A DNA stretch of 64,000 nucleotides, taken from contig CAMPDV010000098.1 of NCBI GenBank assembly GCA_946699065.1, positions 310,001 through 374,000 of the forward strand, in the 5' to 3' direction. Source of the DNA: Loxodes magnus. Taxonomy: Eukaryota; Ciliophora; Karyorelictea; Loxodida; Loxodidae. The number at the start of each line of letters is the position of its first letter. Position 1 is the first letter of the stretch. Below the pieces are notes generated by a model that did not search any database, was not told the DNA's origin, and saw nothing but the letters and a program-made list of their open reading frames with translations. A program made the translations under genes and the position numbers. Shown piece after piece: positions 20,670-52,531 of this stretch.

Positions 20670-21717
20670 TCATTCTATGACAACCTTGAAAATTGTTTTG
20701 CCAACTTTTAAGATTCCGTTATTTACTAAGATTTAGGGTTCGCCGGCAAACAACCTAAAATAAAATATTACCAGGTTCCATTTGTACTCATCTTAGATTC
20801 ATCTCCGTCTTTCAATAACCAACCTGATACATCGTACTTAAGCATGCATTGAGTTCTACTTAAAGATTTTTCTGATAATTTAATATCGTTTCCTATTTAT
20901 CTACCTACTTTGATTGTTCCCTTGCTAACATCAAATTCACTATATTATAAATTTACTGTTTCTAACCTTTTAGCCATCCTGCTAAGAAGACAACTTGCAA
21001 TCTATCGTTAGGAAGAATTGTAAAAGTGACTTGATAGGTTCCAAACGAAACAATTAAGCCATCTTTAAGTGGTATCTAATTGTTCATTAGAATAAAAGTA
21101 CCAGATCCTTGATATAGATCTGCTACTTTATATTAATTAACTTAAGCATCAAAGAAGATAGCGAAATGCTGACGACCAAATCCAAACTTATCTGTACCTG
21201 CTACAATATCAACTGAAGTTATGCTTATATGGTCTTGTTCCTAGAAGTCTCCATTTTAAGTTCCAAAGAACGTTACTCCGTCTTTAACTCCCCTTTTTCC
21301 GTTAGCATAACCTGATGGATAAATTTTGAATTAATCTTATGGTCCAAACTCTTGTGACTCAACAACTTATAAGGTTAATACTGGTTACTTTGCTTAAGAG
21401 GCAGGTTTTCCAACCAAATTGCTTATAAATTAAAGTGTTTATTCCATAGTTGAAAGTTTAACAAATTATTTAACATCTTCTACCTTTTCTATCTCTTCGT
21501 TTTCCATATTATAATCGTATTCAGTATTAAGAGTTTGGAAATTTTATAATTGAGGGATAGAATTTAACTACTAGATCTCAACAACTTTCTTTTTTTATCC
21601 TTGCTCTTCAAATACTGCAACTGTTTCATATTTAGTTGATTAGTCTGTAGTAAGTTCTGCTTTTTCAGGTATGCAACATCTGCAAGTGAAGGAGAAGCAA
21701 TCTCTGGATTCAGACAT
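20670..21717 (-). CDS. tandem FHA-domain protein (copy 1)
   Basis: From the ATG at 21717 to the TGA at 20670, two 17-nt introns (20940-20956 and 20755-20771) give 338 codons in frame. The Cys-rich N-terminus (SRDCFSFTCRCC) may be lipid-modified. The first FHA-like domain covers about residues 170-245 (FGFGRQHFAIFFDA, QGSGTFILMNNQ, LKDGLIVSFGTYQVTF). The second is a clear FHA domain: IKVGRQIGNDIKLSEKSLSR, QCMLKYDV, DGDESKMSTNGTWLF and LKVGKTIFKV, with the conserved GR, SR and NGT positions that bind phosphothreonine. Intron 2 splits the Trp codon of NGTW, and without the splice the NGTW-LF junction is lost. The protein probably reads phospho-Ser/Thr signals. It is the most diverged member of the local family. 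Confidence 0.85.
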
Positions 21718-25796: not shown

Positions 25797-26840
25797 TCAT
25801 TCTAAACGCACTTTAAAAATTGTTTTTCCTACTTTCAAAATACTAGATTCGGTTAATTCCTATGGTTCTGATGCAAATAACCTAAATTTAAAAAGTACCA
25901 AGTTCCGTTTGTACTCATTTTAGATTCATCACCATCTTTCAAAATTCAGCCTGAAGGCTCGTATTTTATCATGCATTGAGTTCTACTCAACCCATTTTCA
26001 TTTACTTTTATATCACTTACTGTATGTCTTCCAATTTTAATAGTTTACTTAGTAGTCTAAAATTCACTATATTAATAATTACAATATTTGATCTTTCAAT
26101 GGACCTGTCAAAAAGATAATTTTAAGCTTTTTACTTGGAAGAATCTCAAAAGTTACATGAGAAGAACCAAAAGCAATAAACTAGTTATTTCTAATAGGAA
26201 TTGGATTACTTATTAAGAAAAATGTTCCAGAGCCTTAGTATAAATCTATTATTTTATATTAATTAACCTCAAAATCAAAAAATATTGCAAAATGCTTATA
26301 GCCAAATCCATGCTATCCAGTTTTAGCTATTACATCAACCATAGGAATATTAATATCTTCATTTGGTAAGGAATTTCTATTTTAAGTTCCAAAAAATACT
26401 ATTCCATCTTTAGCTTCTCTTTAGCTTTTCGGATATCCTGAAGGAAAGATTTAGATAGGATCCAAAAAATCAAATTCTTTCGATTCTATAATTTCTAAAT
26501 TTAGCTTAGGAGAGTCCTTTTAAGGAACAGTTCTTCCAATCATTTTCTTAATAGTCGTTATTACTTTTTACTTGGTTGAAATTTTCATAATATCTTCTAC
26601 TTCACTTTTTTCTATCTATTCTTCTTAAGGCTAATCCTATTTTATTTCAGACAGTAGATTTTACTATTTATCTAATTCGAGTGTAGAATAAAGCTACTCA
26701 GGCATCTATACAGTTTTTTTATTTTGATCTGTTATTAAAATAGGTTAATCATATTGAATAGGTTTCTCTGAGGTAATTTCAGATTTTTCTGATATGCATC
26801 ACTTACAAGAAAAACAGCTAAAGGATGATTCTTCTGCCAT
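25797..26840 (-). CDS. tandem FHA-domain protein (copy 2)
   Basis: From the ATG at 26840 to the TGA at 25797, introns of 16 nt (26067-26082) and 17 nt (25882-25898) leave 337 codons in frame. The organisation matches copy 1: a Cys-rich N-terminus, an acidic linker, a first FHA-like domain (FGYKHFAIFFDFEV, YQGSGTFFLISNP) and a canonical second FHA domain (IKIGRHTVSDIKVNENGLSR, DGDESKMSTNGTW, LKVGKTIFKVRLE). A Trp in PSGWILKDGD and one in the N-terminal Cys cluster are encoded by TGA. The introns sit at the same two sites as in copy 1, so they predate the duplication. The likely role is phosphothreonine-dependent binding. The partner is unknown. Confidence 0.87.
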
Positions 26841-33330: not shown

Positions 33331-34599
33331 GACTTGAGTAAGATTTCTGAATGCTACAGCTCGGTGCTTAGAATCTAACAAAAGAAGTCTAAGTTCTAAA
33401 AAATAATATAATCTCTTATGCTAACTTTCAAAATATCAATCAATGAATAGAACCTTAAATATAATATTAACTTATAGCCTCTTTCCTATTTTCTGCTCAA
33501 AAACTTTTGTAGTGCATGAATTTGCGGTTGATTTAATAAAAAATTCAGAATCATAAGTGAATACTCAAATATTACTATTAACTGTTTTTTATTTTTTCTC
33601 TTGATTAAAGCTTAATATAAACTTGTGAGAATAAGAAGTAATTAATTACCTAATAAAAAGGAAAATAGACATTAAATAAACTTAAAAATTAGTGGATAGC
33701 CAATTAACTAAAAAGAATTAATTATTTACCTAGGGAATTAATTAGGGAAAGAGAAAATTATAAAATCCACTGTGCACAAAAATATTTGATTTCAGAATAG
33801 AAATCTCTAAAATTATTACATTATAATCTTAGTATGAAGCTATTCCCCCTATAATTCCATAATACTTTGTAGAATTTTTATTTTACCTAAAGAAGAGTAT
33901 GTTGTTATATTATACATTGGGTTACTTTATCAGGATTTAAAGGAGCGATTACCAAAATAAATTAATCTTAAATATCAAGAATGGTCTTGAAATCTTCTTA
34001 ATCTACTTAATAAGTCTTGCTTTATTGATTTAATCTGACTTCTTCTTTTCCACTTAGAGATAGTGAAGTTCATGAGATTTCACCTTAATTTAAGCAAAAC
34101 CAGTTATGAGAATCCAGACTCTAATATTATGTTTTTATTCTCTAACTGTTTATAATAAAATTTAACATATCAGAGATATTTAAGTTAAAGCATCTAAATG
34201 TATCAACTTGATGTTTATAAAGCTTATACTTTTTAGGAATTTAATAAATATCTTACTTATAAAATAAAAAGTTAGTTCTTCTAAGAATATCTCTAAATAG
34301 CAGATTAATGCAAAAAGAATAATAGATAAAGTAAATAGTTTTATTTACTTTAAGTATAACACACTAAATTGAATAAGCATCTTATTAAGGAGATTTTTCC
34401 ATTAATAAACTGAGAACTTACTCTTATAATTTCTAATGCGAACTCAGTTAACGTTAAATCGATATCTAATCGAGTAGAGACTGCTTATGCTACTAAGATA
34501 TTTACGAATTTGAACACATTTTTAATTATCTTACTATAGAAATGTATTTAAGTAATTTCTAATAATAGTTACTTTTGGGAAAAGATAAGAAGAAACTAT
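33331..34599. other. AT-rich spacer
   Basis: I see nothing that I can support. The GGTTAGGGTTAAGGG-like run near 33195-33210 lies in the neighbouring pseudogene and is not a telomere array. Confidence 0.35.
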
Positions 34600-35310
34600 C
34601 TATATATGATTAGACTTATATCAGTTAGAACTTTTCAATAACTTAACTTCCTAAATTATTGAAAGTCTTTCACTAGGAATTATTGAAGAGAAGATTAAAA
34701 ATGTTCAAGTTGAAAAATGAAAGTTCAATAATTTCCTCAAATAGAAATGAAGAAATTTAAGAAGAATCTATCCAAGCAACTAAGCATTTGAACAAGAAAC
34801 TTAATTGAGAATTAGGAAAGTAAAAGCTTTATTTAAAACATAATTGCATCTTACTTTCAACGTATCTATGCAGTTATATCCAATATTCAAAATATTGAAA
34901 CTTTTACAGCTTATTTTTGTCAATAGCTTTTCCTTATAGATGGAATGTATGCAATCAAAAGTAATTTAAGACCAAATTTGGATCTGAGAATTAACCAATT
35001 AGAGTGTATCTAAATATACTAGCCAAATGGTCCAGAGTCAAGAAGGAAACTGAATTCGTTCTTAGGATTCATCTACAACAACAAAAATTAAATGTTGATA
35101 TTGCAAAAAATATGTCTACTAGATAAGAAATTGCTAGAAACTTTAATCAAAGTAAGAATTAGCAACAGAATAAGGAATTTACAACCTGCTTAAAGATTCA
35201 TTACACTCCAAACGAAGATTTCATTTTAAAAAAAATTTTTACTATAAATTGAAGCTTTGAAGATTATGGATGTAATAAGACGATTCAAGAAACGATAATA
35301 CAGCTTTTAT
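34600..35310 (+). pseudogene. decayed CCHC ORF1-like copy
   Basis: A plus-strand frame with a helical, Gln/Lys-rich part, then QMVQSQEGNWIRSQDSSTTT and KIKCWYCKKYVYQIRNCQKL. The last is a zinc knuckle whose His has become Tyr (C-x2-C-x4-Y-x4-C); the Trp in it is TGA. The upstream part is frameshifted. It is a further member of the retrotransposon ORF1 set, inserted upstream of the FHA array. Confidence 0.45.
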
Positions 35311-35767
35311 TTTCAATCACTATAAGAGTATAAAACAAGTAAATTATAAGAATTTCGACTCAGAGAAAAAATAGGATCATTATTTTGAAAACTATGAATG
35401 ATTTAAAAATTTTACAAATTCTAAATTAGTAACTAAAGAATAAAAGAGAGTTTCTTTAATCCCTCATGTTTATATGTTATGGGAGAATCTAACTTTAAGT
35501 GTAAAGTAAGAAACTAAATATAAAACAAAGCTAAAGAACTAAAAACTATTTTTCCTTAAAGATAGAAATATAACTAGTTTAGCCCTTTAAAATTATATTT
35601 AATAATGTAACTAAAAATTTTTTATTAAGATTTGGAAAAGATAAATAGATTAATTATTATACTTATATTGCTTTAAAAAATAGATTATATATAATTTTAA
35701 TTTAAAAGTTAGATAATAATAAAGAATAGTAAGAATTTAAGTTAAAAAAAGGGTATCAATAAGAGTT

Positions 35768-37714
35768 TCATTCTAAACGCACTTTAAAAAATGTTTTTCC
35801 TACTTTCAAAATACTAGATTCAATTAATTCCTATGGTTCTGATGCAAATAACCTAAATTTAAAAAGTACCAAGTTCCATTTGTACTCATTTTAGATTCAT
35901 CACCATCTTTCAAAATTCAGCCTGAAGGCTCGTATTTTAGCATGCATTGAGTTCTACTCAATCCATTTTCATTTACTTTTATATCACTTCCAGAATGTCT
36001 TCCAATTTTGATAGTTTACTTAGTAGTCTCAAATTCACTATATTAATAATTACAATATTTGATCTTTCAATGAACCTGTCAAAAAGATAATTTTGAGCTT
36101 GTTACTCGGAAGAATCTCAAAAGTTATATGAGAAGAACTAAAAGCATAAAACTAGTTATTTCTAATAGGAATTGGATTACTTATTAAGAAAAATGTTCCA
36201 GAGCCTTAGTATAAATCTATTATTTTATATTAATTAACCTCAAAATCAAAAAATATTGCAAAATGCTTATAGCCAAATCCATGCTATCCAGTTTTAGCTA
36301 TTACATCAACCATAGGAATATTAATATCTTCATTTGGCAAGGAATTTCTATTTTAAGTTCCAAAAAATACTATTCCATCTTTAGCTTCTCTTTAGCTTTT
36401 CGGATATCCTGAAGGAAAGATTTAGATAGGATCCAAAAAATCAAATTCTTTCGATTCTATAATTTCTAAATTTAGCTTAGGAGAGTCCTTTTAAAGAACA
36501 GTTCTTCCAATCATTTTATTAATAATCTGTGTTACATTTTACTTAGTTGAAATTTTCATAATATCTTCTATTATACTTTTTTCTATCTATTCTTCTTAAG
36601 GCTAATCCTATTTTATTTCCTTTTACTAAATTAGAATTTCGTTGATGTTTTCTACTTATAATTAAGAGTTTCATTTTAAACGCACTTTAAAAAATGTTTT
36701 TCCTACTTTCAAAATACTAGATTCAATTAATTCCTATGGTTCTGATGCAAATAACCTAAATTTAAAAAGTACCAAGTTCCATTTGTACTCATTTTAGATT
36801 CATCACCATCTTTCAAAATTCAGCCTGAAGGCTCGTATTTTAGCATGCATTGAGTTCTACTCAATCCATTTTCATTTACTTTTATATCACTTCCAGAATG
36901 TCTTCCAATTTTAATAGTTTACTTAGTAGTCTCAAATTCACTATATTAATAATTACAATATTTGATCTTTCAATGAACCTGTCAAAAAGATAATTTTGAG
37001 CTTGTTACTCGGAAGAATCTCAAAAGTTATATGAGAAGAACTAAAAGCATAAAACTAGTTATTTCTAATAGGAATTGGATTACTTATTAAGAAAAATGTT
37101 CCAGAGCCTTAGTATAAATCTATTATTTTATATTAATTAACCTCAAAATCAAAAAATATTGCAAAATGCTTATAGCCAAATCCATGCTATCCAGTTTTAG
37201 CTATTACATCAACCATAGGAATATCAATATCTTCATTTGGTAAGGAATTTCTATTTTAAGTTCCAAAAAATACTATTCCATCTTTAGCTTCTCTTTAGCT
37301 TTTCGGATATCCTGAAGGAAAGATTTAGATAGGATCCAAAAAATCAAATTCTTTCGATTCTATAATTTCTAAATTTAGCTTAGGAGAGTCCTTTTAAAGA
37401 ACAGTTCTTCCAATCATTTTATTAATAATCTGTGTTACATTTTACTTAGTTGAAATTTTCATAATATCTTCTATTATACTTTTTAAAATATGTTCTTCTT
37501 AAGGCTAATCCTATTTTATTTAATAATTTAGAGATTATTTGTTTTCTTATTCTAGAGTAGAATAGAGCTATTCTTGCACTTATATTGTTTTTTTATCTTA
37601 TTCTACTTACTGAATATTTGAATCTTATAAAATAGGCTACTCTAAGAGGTGTTCAGTTTTTTCTGAAATGCATTATTTTTAAGAAAGACAGCCTAAGTTT
37701 GATTCTTCTGCCAT
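35768..37714 (-). CDS. fused double FHA gene: tandem duplication with internal TGA
   Basis: Two near-identical FHA units lie head to tail, offset by exactly 903 bp. The upstream unit (37714-36671) has its own ATG (MAEESNLGCLSQKQC...) and ends in KVRLK-TGA at 36671-36673. The downstream unit (to the TGA at 35768) has lost its N-terminal exon and ATG. Its frame continues directly from the upstream unit through that TGA and a 51-bp junction (VENINEILIQQKEIKQDQ). With four introns (36941-36956, 36756-36772, 36038-36053, 35853-35869; 16, 17, 16 and 17 nt) the whole is 627 codons, exactly in frame. If the internal TGA is read as Trp, a 626-residue protein with four FHA domains results; if it is read as stop, the product is copy-2-like and the second unit is a pseudogene. 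Each unit keeps GR, SR and STNGTW. Confidence 0.8.
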
Positions 37715-38199
37715 TTATAGATAAATTAATTTAAATGAAATTAGTATTTCTAACTAGAATAATTTATCATTAACACTTTATATTTTATTCACTTAATTTT
37801 GATTAAACTTTCCCTTTTCTTCCCTTACTTATTCTATTTATTTGCTTCTCTTGTGTATCTAGCTTACATATTTCTAATGGATAATCTATCTATTTCATAT
37901 CTTAAAAGCTTTGCTATTAATAAATTAGTGATTTAATTTTCTTTATTAACCAGCTAGAATATAAGCATTCGTTTATTTGTAATAGCATGAAAATTAGTAT
38001 ATAATGATATCTAAAGCTATGCTATACAAAGCAAAAGTTATTCTAAATATATATCTTACTAAGAGTTTTCTACCTTTAATAACATCTTCAAATGGATTAA
38101 AAAACTATCTTGGCTACATAGAATAGTCTCAGATTCATCTAACTATTGCTTAATAAAAGATTTAATTTTATTTATTTTAATTCATTTCAACTAAAACAG
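37715..38199. other. upstream region of FHA gene
   Basis: An AT-rich stretch between the FHA start and the GC-rich RNA-like island. It presumably contains the FHA promoter. No gene seen. Confidence 0.4.
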
Positions 38200-38480
38200 T
38201 TTTTGGACCGGAAACTCCTTTCCGATTGCACGACCCGACGCTCTCTTTTTATGGAATAACGGAGATATCCTGTTGTGCTCTAGTCACAGCTGCTAGGGAG
38301 CTCCATCGCTATGAGCAGCCAGGCTTCAAGCCCCTACCAAGAACGGATAATCTTAAAGACAGTGTTCCTTTCAGAAATTGACTCTGAGCAGGGACTTTCT
38401 CAGCGACAGGAAAGGAACTTGTTCCTAGCCATAAAACCAGAAAGTGTTGTCACAAAGGTCATTCTGAGCTCCCACCATCT
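38200..38480. ncRNA. GC-rich structured RNA candidate
   Basis: About 280 bp at near 50% G+C in a genome near 27%, with many perfect stems: CGGAAA/TTTCCG (38209-38224), GCTGCT/AGCAGC enclosing GGGAGCTCC, GTTCCTTTC/GAAAGGAAC enclosing CTGAG/CTCAG, and AGGAAC/GTTCCT. No frame looks conserved. On the plus strand the segment around 38275-38300 (CTCTAGTCACAGCTGCTAGG) resembles, from memory, the 7SL/Alu-domain segment of SRP RNA. On the minus strand GAAAGTCC recalls RNase P/MRP region CR-I. Neither is decisive. T-runs suitable as Pol III terminators flank both ends. Strand unresolved. Confidence 0.5.
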
Positions 38481-38859: not shown

Positions 38860-40660
38860 CCTAATTAATTAATGGTTTAAAAGCAGAATTAATTAAATAT
38901 GGAGGATAGGAATTACATGTTATAGTTACAAGCTTTAGTAACAACATGCTATGAACACTCTCTATACCAAATTAATTGAAAAGAATTGATATTTTACCTA
39001 TTTTCAAAAAAGGAAGTAAAAGTGTCTGAAGTAATTGAAGACTAATAGCTCTACTGAATTGCTTACTTAAAATATATGATAAAGCATTAACTTAAAGACT
39101 ATATAATTTAATATATGAAAGAAATATCATTCATCAAGCTTAATTTGGTTTTCATCGGAAAAGATCGATATCATAACAAATTTTAACAATTTAATAGATT
39201 ATTGACTTGCATCGTAGATGGTCATAAAAAATAGTTAATTGCTACTCTTATAGACGTGGAAAAAATGTTTGACAGTATACAAAGGAATATACTATTTGAT
39301 CATCTAAGAAGACTTAGATTACCTCTGGGATTGTGATAATGGCACTCGAATCTCTTTATGAAAATATTGATGCTAAGTTCTTTATTGATGGTAATATTAC
39401 AAGATCACTTAAGTTAAATAACGGAGTATTATAAGGAAACAACCATGGGCCTGCTTTTGCAATACTTTGCTATGATATTGTAATTAGATATTTAGAAGAA
39501 AAATAACATAAATATGGCTATAATATCTGCTAGACAAATTTTGTGGTTCGTGGTTTTGCAGATGACTTAATTGATCTTTCTGATTCATAGTAAAATGCAT
39601 AAAAATTACTCGACGCCGCAAAAAATATTTTCTTGAGTAAACTAATCATAAACGCAAAAAAATGCGAAGTAATTTAGTTCTTAAAAAAGAAAGAAAATAG
39701 AATTTAAATATCAATGGAATTCTTATTGTTCAAAAGGACGAAATTTCATATCTTGGATACAGATTGGGAAACAAATAAAATTATAAACTACACTGCGCAA
39801 GCAAAGTATCTGACTTCGGAGTAGCAATTTTGGAAGCATCAGCAATTCTTTCTAAGTACGGAGTAGTATCACCACTCAATTTTAAAACACTTTGCAGAAC
39901 GATTATTTTGACTAAAATAGAATATGGAAGTGAGATAACTCCTTGAAGTATCATGTCAGGACTTAAAGGAATGAAAGCTTAAATAACTAAATTACAAAGA
40001 CTCATTACAAGGAAAGCATTTAAATTTCCTTAATCAGCATTTAAAGAATCTTACTTCATTGATCTTAATTGAATTCCGTTTACACACATGGCTATATTAA
40101 AATTCATGCGCTTTTATTTCAAACTAGAGCAAACCAGTAGAGAAACCTGAACTCTGATATAGCCTTCTTGCTTTCTAAATGCAAGCAATACAATTAGTCA
40201 TATATGAAATACATAAATAAAAGTATTAAATAATATAAAATTGATATTGAAAGTATGACAAATCTAAAAGAATTTAATTAGCATATTATACTAAGAATGA
40301 AAGAACAATTTTTATAAGAATATAGGAATACACGGATACCTACAGCTTAAAGATATATTTAATCAATTTAAAATAATAAAAGTGTATTTCCTGAAATAAC
40401 TTATACTAAGTTTAACAGACATAGAATGTAAGACATAATTTCTATTTTCAAACTGAGGACATTCACCTTAGTTTGTGTCACATAAGCACATAAAAATGAT
40501 TGTGCATGTGGTTTAGCTCATGATAAACTAGACCATATATTTGAATGTACTTTATATAATGATGTCTTTTAGGAATTATGTAATCGAAAAATATTTAATT
40601 GCAAAGATTATAAAAAAGGTAATTCTGTACGACTAAAATTATATTAATTCTAATTTTGAA
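38860..40660 (+). pseudogene. non-LTR retrotransposon reverse transcriptase, frameshifted
   Basis: The domains can be followed in order across at least three frame changes. They are fingers (LKAELIKYGGQEL, LPIFKKGSK, NWRLIALLNCLLKIYDKALT, QAQFGFHRKRS), motif A (LIDVEKMFDSIQRNILFDHL at 39250), motif B (NNGVLQGNNHGPAFAI), motif C with the catalytic Asp pair (VVRGFADDLIDLSDS, 39555-39566) and the thumb (YLGYRLGNK...ILTKIEYGSEI). The C-terminal zinc motif is CACGLAHDKLDHIFEC at about 40490-40540. This order and the C-terminal Cys/His motif are typical of LINE-type ORF2. The catalytic residues survive, but the frameshifts mean no full enzyme is made. An endonuclease domain is not recognisable upstream. 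Confidence 0.8.
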
Positions 40661-41590
40661 AAAGTAAAATCCCTAAGATTGGCAATTAATTAAAAGTTTT
40701 AATCAAAAATTGCTTAAAAAGGGATAGAAATTTAAAAATTTAGCAGTTGAAACAAAAAGAAAAATTGATGGGAGAAAGAAAATATAGTTTAAGCAAGAAA
40801 CTTAAATAATGGATGTTAAAACAAATAGGAAGAAAATTAAAAATAAGAAGAGATAGGAAAATGCGAGAACACAATTTAGAAGCAATATAGAAGAAACAAA
40901 AGAACAGGAGTAAAGAATTAACTAGAGGTTGATAATAAACTTACACAAACTCTTATACTTAACATAATTCGCATGAAATATAACTATAAGTAGTGCAATT
41001 AAGTCCCAATACTCACAGTATTTAAACCTTTTTATCTTATTATTGTTAGTTTGTTTAAATTTGCTTAATGTATAATTATTATAAAACAAATAGTTATAAA
41101 AATAAGTATCAACTTACCTCTATAATTTCACTTTCTAATAGTTTATTTTCTTAATTGGGCTTAATTAGAACTCTATAAATAAGTAATTAAAATAGCTTCT
41201 AAGAATAATATTTTTATACACCAGATAATTAACAACTCTAGCTAGCATTTAGTATCTTAATAAAGAAGTATTTATAATGGCAGTTTAATTAGCCAAATTA
41301 TTAAATGAACTAATTATAAAATTAAAATAAAAGTCATATTTTTAACTTCTCCAAGCATATTGCTAAACATTGGAAAGCTTATCTTAGAATCTGGAAATTA
41401 CTAAATTTCAAGCTATGGGTATAAGTATGAGGAACTGGCTATTTAAATTATTTATTAAAGTTTTTAGATTTATTGCTTAAAAAAATTTACTTTTAGAAGC
41501 ATTTAAGTAATATAAGCTTCATGCTAAGGGATATCTCATCAATCATTTAGTCTCTTGCCCATTTGCTTGAAGGAAAAAGTTATAATTAAA
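40661..41590. other. AT-rich region after the RT remnant
   Basis: The first 250 bp are Lys-rich in frame and may be the element's 3' tail. The rest is AT-rich without supported features. Confidence 0.35.
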
Positions 41591-51195: not shown

Positions 51196-52531
51196 TTAGT
51201 TTTTCCAAATGTATCTCAGATATTATTTTAGATTAATTTTATTATTAATTTCATTTATATCTACTTTTGGTATCCTAGTAATAATAAGAATATAGCACTC
51301 CATACTATCATAAAACTGTTTACTCTTGTTTCTTTTTTACAGCTAATAAGCAAATTAGAGAATTTACCTCTATAATTTGAAAGGTATCTATGAATCATAT
51401 TGATTGAGTTAAATCGAAGTAGTTTTATACGAGAAAAATAAGTAAAATTAATAGAGAAAGCTAGGGTATAGTAGTTGAGAAAGGAATGTAAGGCTTTTTA
51501 ATTAAGAAGTTCATAAGTTTTTAGTTTAGTGAGATGTATGATAGTATAACGATCAAAACTCCAAAAAGCTTACAATTTCAGCAAATTAATATAATAATTA
51601 TAGCTTTAATATCAAAACCTAATGAAAGAGCTATAAAACTTGTAGAAAGACTTATTCGAAATAACGATTCATAGTATCAAGGATATATTTATAAGCATAA
51701 AATGAGTATTTATTCAATATTCAGAACTAGAACTCAATAAAATTCTTATCAAGGTATTTATTAAAATAAATACTTGGAGTACAAATGAAACAATAATTGA
51801 TTAAGTTCTTCTGAATCTATCCATTCTAGAAATACTTTTTAACTTCCATCTTACTTCTTCAGCAAATATTTATAATTAATTAATTTAAGATAGTAAAGAG
51901 GAATTCAAGGCTAAGAAGTAGTAAATTAAATCTCTATTTAGCAAGGCAAGTTTTAAATATGTATAATATAATTTATTAAGTTAAATTGACTTATATATCT
52001 TCAATCTATTTCTATTAAGTTGATAAATCATTTATGAAAGTAGAATATCTCATAATAGTCTTTAGGATTTATACAGTGGCTATATAGTTAAAACTAATGA
52101 AAATAGATTTTAACTATTATTCTATTATATTATATTATATTATATTATATTATATTATATTATATTATATTATATTATATTATATTATATTATATTATAT
52201 TATATTATATTATATTATATTATATTATATTATATTATATTATATTATATTATATTATATTATATTATATTATATTATATTATATTATATTATATTATAT
52301 TATATTATATTATATTATATTATATTAAAGTTGTATTTTTACTTATAAAAAGTAAGTTGTTAATCAAATACATTTTTGAGTCTTGATTGTTTCCTTTTTA
52401 TTTTTTATAAAAGCAAAATTTATCTAAAAGTAGATTAAATGGAAACTGACAAACTTTTAATTTGATTATTAGACCACTAAATGTTCTAGATTGGTTATAG
52501 AATTTTAGTTTATGAGTTTTATTTAATAGTT
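51196..52531. other. intergenic region with microsatellite
   Basis: AT-rich. Its only clear feature is the pentanucleotide array at 52123-52327. No gene supported. Confidence 0.45.
52123..52327. repeat. TATAT pentanucleotide microsatellite, about 41 copies
   Basis: About 205 bp of near-perfect TATAT repeats. In frame it would give a meaningless Tyr-Tyr-Ile-Ile-Leu repeat. It ends about 205 bp before the left arm of the large inverted repeat. Confidence 0.95.

Follow-up and report, generated by a model that had tools for sequence, protein, structure and literature searches.

The analysis of a 64,000-nucleotide stretch of Loxodes magnus DNA (the window) reveals a head-to-tail duplication of an FHA gene on the minus strand that is far beyond chance. 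With four predicted introns removed, the second copy lies in the frame of the first, and we consider it fairly likely that the locus encodes one 626-aa protein with two FHA units, fused by the duplication through an old TGA that would now be read as tryptophan. If true, this represents gene fusion without any stop-codon mutation.

Layout and reading frame of the duplicated FHA gene

The gene begins with an ATG at 37714 and reaches a TGA at 36673-36671, beyond which, after 52 nt, the gene body is found a second time. The repeat units, unit 1 (A1, 37521-36663) and unit 2 (A2, 36618-35760), are each 859 bp long, with a start-to-start offset of 903, and alignment places the end of unit 1 8 nt past its TGA. 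They differ at 9 positions in 859 bp, four of which are dispersed (37241, 37225, 36913 and 36676) and five clustered at 37492-37485; the five changes in these 8 nt are specific to unit 1, and A2 and paralogue C agree there. The start codon and N-terminal part (37522-37714, minus strand) occur only in the upstream unit, and the context of the ATG at 37714 is that of the paralogue C start (26840). Unit 2 lacks the first 193 nt (64 codons), including the start codon, and terminates at the TGA at 35770-35768, with a second in-frame TGA 4 codons beyond it and a T-rich flank homologous to the flank of paralogue C.

Two complete single-unit paralogues lie on the minus strand of the same window: C (25797-26840), whose body is 96% identical to unit 2, and D (20670-21717), which has TGG at the FHA tryptophan where A and C have TGA. 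Against Pfam PF00498, the 626-aa reading scores 83.9 bits (cut-off 20.7) with two FHA stretches, the best at residues 262-327, and the identity of the units would place the second stretch in unit 2. The first domain of each unit may also have an FHA fold; exon 1 of C and of D scores 12.9 and 19.2 bits, respectively, under the cut-off of 20.7. Homologues elsewhere are limited to one protein with 29% identity, so that no outgroup locus is available, and the comparison with solved structures gave one match, a 36-residue stretch of 8prj_A.

The four introns were predicted from the frame, GT-AG borders and the paralogues, not from RNA. In unit 1 they would occupy 36941-36956 (16 nt, GT-AG, at the matching position in paralogues) and 36756-36772 (17 nt), and in unit 2 36038-36053 (16 nt) and 35853-35869 (17 nt), all on the minus strand, the last three placed by GT-AG, frame and paralogues alike. 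The spacing of the last two introns is 184 nt at A and 184-192 nt in all the modelled paralogous units except L058 (21 of 22). With these predicted introns removed, the repeat measures 903 - 33 = 870 nt, or 290 codons, so that the frame of unit 1 passes the old TGA and the 52 nt into unit 2; the spliced reading then comprises 627 codons (626 aa and a stop), with TGA at codons 293, 337, 583 and 627. This phase would arise by chance in one case in three and is the sole informative part of the frame test, because this code has no codon that always terminates, and an open frame therefore counts for nothing as evidence. An earlier note on this DNA had proposed a tandem FHA duplication offset by 903 bp, in which the frame runs, after removal of four introns, through unit 1's own TGA into a second unit that has lost its ATG and ends at the TGA at 35768; this layout is confirmed, and the junction, given there as 51 bp, counts 52 nt (36670-36619).

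The first 8 nt of the junction are identical to the 8 nt after the stop of unit 2, and the remaining 44 nt (36619-36662, minus strand) look like breakpoint filler without a recognisable source. A genome search that allowed as many as 3 mismatches in 31 nt gave no second match to this filler, nor did a DNA search that skipped very common words, and in the search for a template in nearby DNA the longest match to the junction was 13 nt, equalled in 102 of 200 shuffles. A diverged N-terminal piece was rejected as the origin of the junction: shuffles reached the protein alignment scores in 1645 and 1764 of 2000 cases and the DNA alignment scores in 348 and 589 of 1000, while right-anchored alignment gave a score reached by 1013 of 2000 shuffles for A1 and a score of 0 for C. 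The BLAST repeat alignment did extend through the junction. The best match for copied 3' UTR beyond the 8 nt was to the 3' flank of C, at a score reached by 78 of 1000 shuffles.

The surroundings of the locus are repetitive. A direct repeat of 61% identity (33487-34718 and 39521-40739) flanks it, as does a plus-strand reading at 39300-39911 that we take, by a familiar motif, to be reverse-transcriptase-like; together these are perhaps old retrotransposon remnants. About 140 bp of an interspersed repeat lie at 38150-38300, with at least 39 other copies at 90% identity or more among 456 candidates, and a TATTA array of 42 copies with 99% matches occupies 52118-52327.

Two meanings of TGA in the FHA family

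Matches to the A body in the genome comprise 101 stretches, several per gene. Protein-to-DNA alignment with short introns allowed gave models for paralogue D and for 23 units at 20 further loci, and 22 units remained once the frame-shifted L043 and L044 were left out. A TGA follows the conserved C-terminal end within 20 codons in 20 of the 22 units, the exceptions being the two units of L041, and within 6 codons in 19 of them. Eight extra loci gave six models (L025 and L039, on the wrong strand, were left out), with the TGA within 3 codons in four and at 16 and 20 codons in two. Codon 337 of the continuous frame (36671-36673) aligns with the stop TGA of the paralogues and occupies the usual stop position of the family, and the TGA at 36671 is probably the ancestral stop of unit 1, as the earlier note had maintained.

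The same family supports the further claim that TGA serves as both tryptophan and stop. The conserved FHA tryptophan is encoded by TGA in 10 of the 22 paralogous units that remain without L043 and L044 and by TGG in 12, D being among the latter; at this position A1, A2 and C carry TGA. The family stop is TGA in 20 of 22. In A, the FHA-tryptophan TGA sits 44 codons before the stop (293/337 and 583/627), so that TGA is already sense 132 nt upstream of a stop. The 6942 aligned family codons include 353 TAA and 142 TAG, which are thus sense-read; both encode glutamine in NCBI table 27. The published account of Loxodes magnus describes UGA as tryptophan if it is far enough from the poly-A tail, with a median 3' UTR of 41 nt and an intron mode of 17 (PMC11441545).

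Three units deviate at their ends. Both FHA units of L041 (G000:C108:455500-461500) lack a TGA near the conserved end: a TAA stands at codon index 3 and 2, and the frame does not meet a TGA until index 38 and 34. L052 (G000:C53:806500-811500) has TAA at index 2 and TGA at 18. Such ends suggest that TAA may sometimes be a translation stop in Loxodes magnus, against the published single stop UGA.

These observations are consistent with a young head-to-tail duplication of one FHA gene, with one breakpoint inside the N-terminal coding region and the other 8 nt beyond the stop, that would have removed the 3' UTR of unit 1 and the start region of unit 2, the frame being kept by luck. After splicing, 870 nt would now separate the old stop at 36671 from the final one downstream. 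Since this code lets UGA terminate translation only close to the 3' end of the mRNA, the old stop would most likely be read as tryptophan. The introns, a single transcript, readthrough and a stable protein are the steps that we infer.

Competing readings of the locus

The principal alternative, which we regard as unlikely, is that the TGA at 36671 still stops translation, the mRNA being cut and tailed in the junction or at the start of unit 2, and that unit 2 represents either a truncated pseudogene or a separate short gene starting from the ATG at 36559. Older tandem FHA pairs lie on contigs C71 (L040), C108 (L041) and C20 (L042), and those on C71 and C20 are precedents for this reading. Across the three pairs, first units best match first units and second units best match second units. 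The one exception is the C71 second unit, which scores 253 bits with its own first unit and slightly less, 237, with the C20 second unit; the tandem arrangement probably goes far back. In the C71 and C20 pairs the TGA of the first unit is retained, and the second unit, in another frame, begins with an ATG of its own and a Cys-rich stretch 68 and 101 nt beyond that stop, respectively; these look like separate, unfused genes. The C108 pair, with its two units in one frame, no TGA between them and TAA at the expected stop of both, is ambiguous as to fusion. At A, the first in-frame ATG of unit 2 (36559) lies 111 nt from the TGA at 36671, which leaves room for a gene end and a new start, given that the gap on C71 is only 68 nt. 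We also know of no poly(A) signal for Loxodes magnus, so that a poly(A) site may lie in the junction.

The sequence after the old stop argues against this alternative. The 60 nt after the TGA of A1 were compared with the tails of 22 others (20 paralogous units including D, together with C and A2), and their T content of 26.7% is the lowest, the other 22 tails ranging over 33-58%. The UTR-minus-CDS score of the A1 tail (-2.6) falls below all 22 others (-2.0 to 8.6), by a small margin within a set drawn from one gene family; the stop assigned to L052, whose tail scores -2.0, is uncertain. For coding 60-mers the median score is -4.7 and the 95th percentile 0.5, so the A1 tail falls between the coding and UTR classes; in the closely spaced pairs on C71 and C20 the tails of the first genes score 3.4 and 0.9. 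The loss of unit 1's usual 3' flank is supported by this tail, the least UTR-like of the 23, if by a small margin. The start of a separate second gene meets similar difficulty. Of 17 units, 11, among them A1 and C, have a start no more than 12 nt from where it is expected (the other 6 have none there), and all 11 starts carry an A at -1, whereas the ATG at 36559 is preceded by T, and its would-be promoter region would consist of copied coding sequence and filler without another match. Unit 1 thus seems to have lost its 3' end and unit 2 its beginning, on tail and start signs that are modest and come from one family, and that agree with each other.

A second alternative concerns the age of the fusion and not the fusion itself, and we find it doubtful, slightly more so than continued termination at 36671: the fusion would be old, and the bodies of A1, A2 and C would have been evened by gene conversion. 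Six 50-nt body segments of A1 and C are identical at 50 of 50 positions, as compared with 31-41 of 50 for segments upstream of the gene, which indicates that gene conversion acts between A and C, and the lack of a recognisable source for the junction would also suit an old event. Against great age, the 8 copied nt after the TGA are still the same in A1 and A2, and the junction, right-anchored against the N-terminal region from which a diverged remnant would derive, aligns no better than shuffles (1013/2000). Conversion between C and A appears patchy along 25797-26840 and 35754-37714.

A young event is the reading that we prefer. Outside the one cluster the units diverge at 4 in about 825 sites, near the Loxodes magnus heterozygosity of 0.6% given in the published account (PMC11441545), and the duplication may be as young as allelic variation, perhaps unfixed. 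Only two changes are specific to A2, both synonymous, too few to prove selection on A2. It is very improbable that the locus shows an assembly error or a structural variant, heterozygous or confined to one strain, and not a settled gene structure. This low divergence, the collapsed haplotypes of the assembly (PMC11441545) and the failure to find a second-haplotype contig (no other contig carries the 3' flank at allelic identity, and a multi-copy repeat blurs the comparison for the upstream flank) speak for such an error or variant, but the assembly was built from PacBio CCS reads (PMC11441545), and 9 differing sites with a joining sequence found nowhere else would not readily come from a collapsed or chimeric repeat.

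Generality and comparison with known systems

Among the 14 repeats listed for 158,420 bases (the window plus 20 loci selected because they carry FHA genes), this is the sole head-to-tail repeat with more than 90% identity within 2 kb. Genes of the standard code also fuse by tandem duplication, for which the breakpoint must precede the stop or the stop must mutate. The extra breakpoint zone that the Loxodes code provides is small, a few per cent of the length of a roughly 1-kb gene, because the 3' UTR is short (median 41 nt, PMC11441545), and duplication through the stop as a general route of fusion in context-stop genomes is a good hypothesis that has no count behind it. A broader proposition, to which we give even chances, is that in context-stop codes nothing but RNA 3'-end formation determines where a gene ends, and that any rearrangement causing loss of a poly(A) site would therefore turn an unchanged stop into tryptophan and fuse genes at once, this locus being a young example with the fossil stop in place. 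By inference, the larger consequence of the code is that poly(A)-site loss by itself should fuse genes.

The fused reading, if correct, would also let the locus serve as a natural experiment on how karyorelicts distinguish the stop from the sense meaning of UGA. One TGA lies near the mRNA 3' end (35768) and, if the units are fused, the other lies far from it (36671); the two have near-identical sequence upstream, and the 8 nt that follow them are identical. The last codon before the TGA is AAA in unit 1 and GAA in unit 2, and no TAA occurs in the 76 codons before either. If only the TGA at 36671 is read as tryptophan, distance to the 3' end suffices.

The locus shares with the karyorelict code described for Loxodes magnus (NCBI table 27; PMC11441545) a TGA that is both tryptophan and stop, TAA and TAG as sense codons, tiny introns and short AT-rich 3' UTRs. 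In the passages considered, that account deals with the code and with gene finding and describes no duplication through which a stop becomes sense, as this locus would present. Codes without a dedicated stop are described for Condylostoma magnum and Parduczia, where termination was proposed to be set by nearness to the transcript end, and 'stop' codons 24-66 nt before the real stop were reported as translated in 16 of 1,672 transcripts (Swart 2016, PMC4967479). The words fusion and tandem are absent from the text of Swart 2016 (PMC4967479), and among the papers listed in the literature searches no title or abstract opening describes such a fusion; the searches that paired fusion with Condylostoma magnum or with Loxodes found no paper. 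Like other proteins of the FHA-domain family (PF00498), the 626-aa reading carries FHA sequence, here as two stretches, and it differs in placing two family units in one frame instead of one. The likeness to ordinary tandem fusion under the standard code lies in a head-to-tail copy that joins two coding units in frame; the difference is that at the Loxodes locus the stop codon is kept whole.
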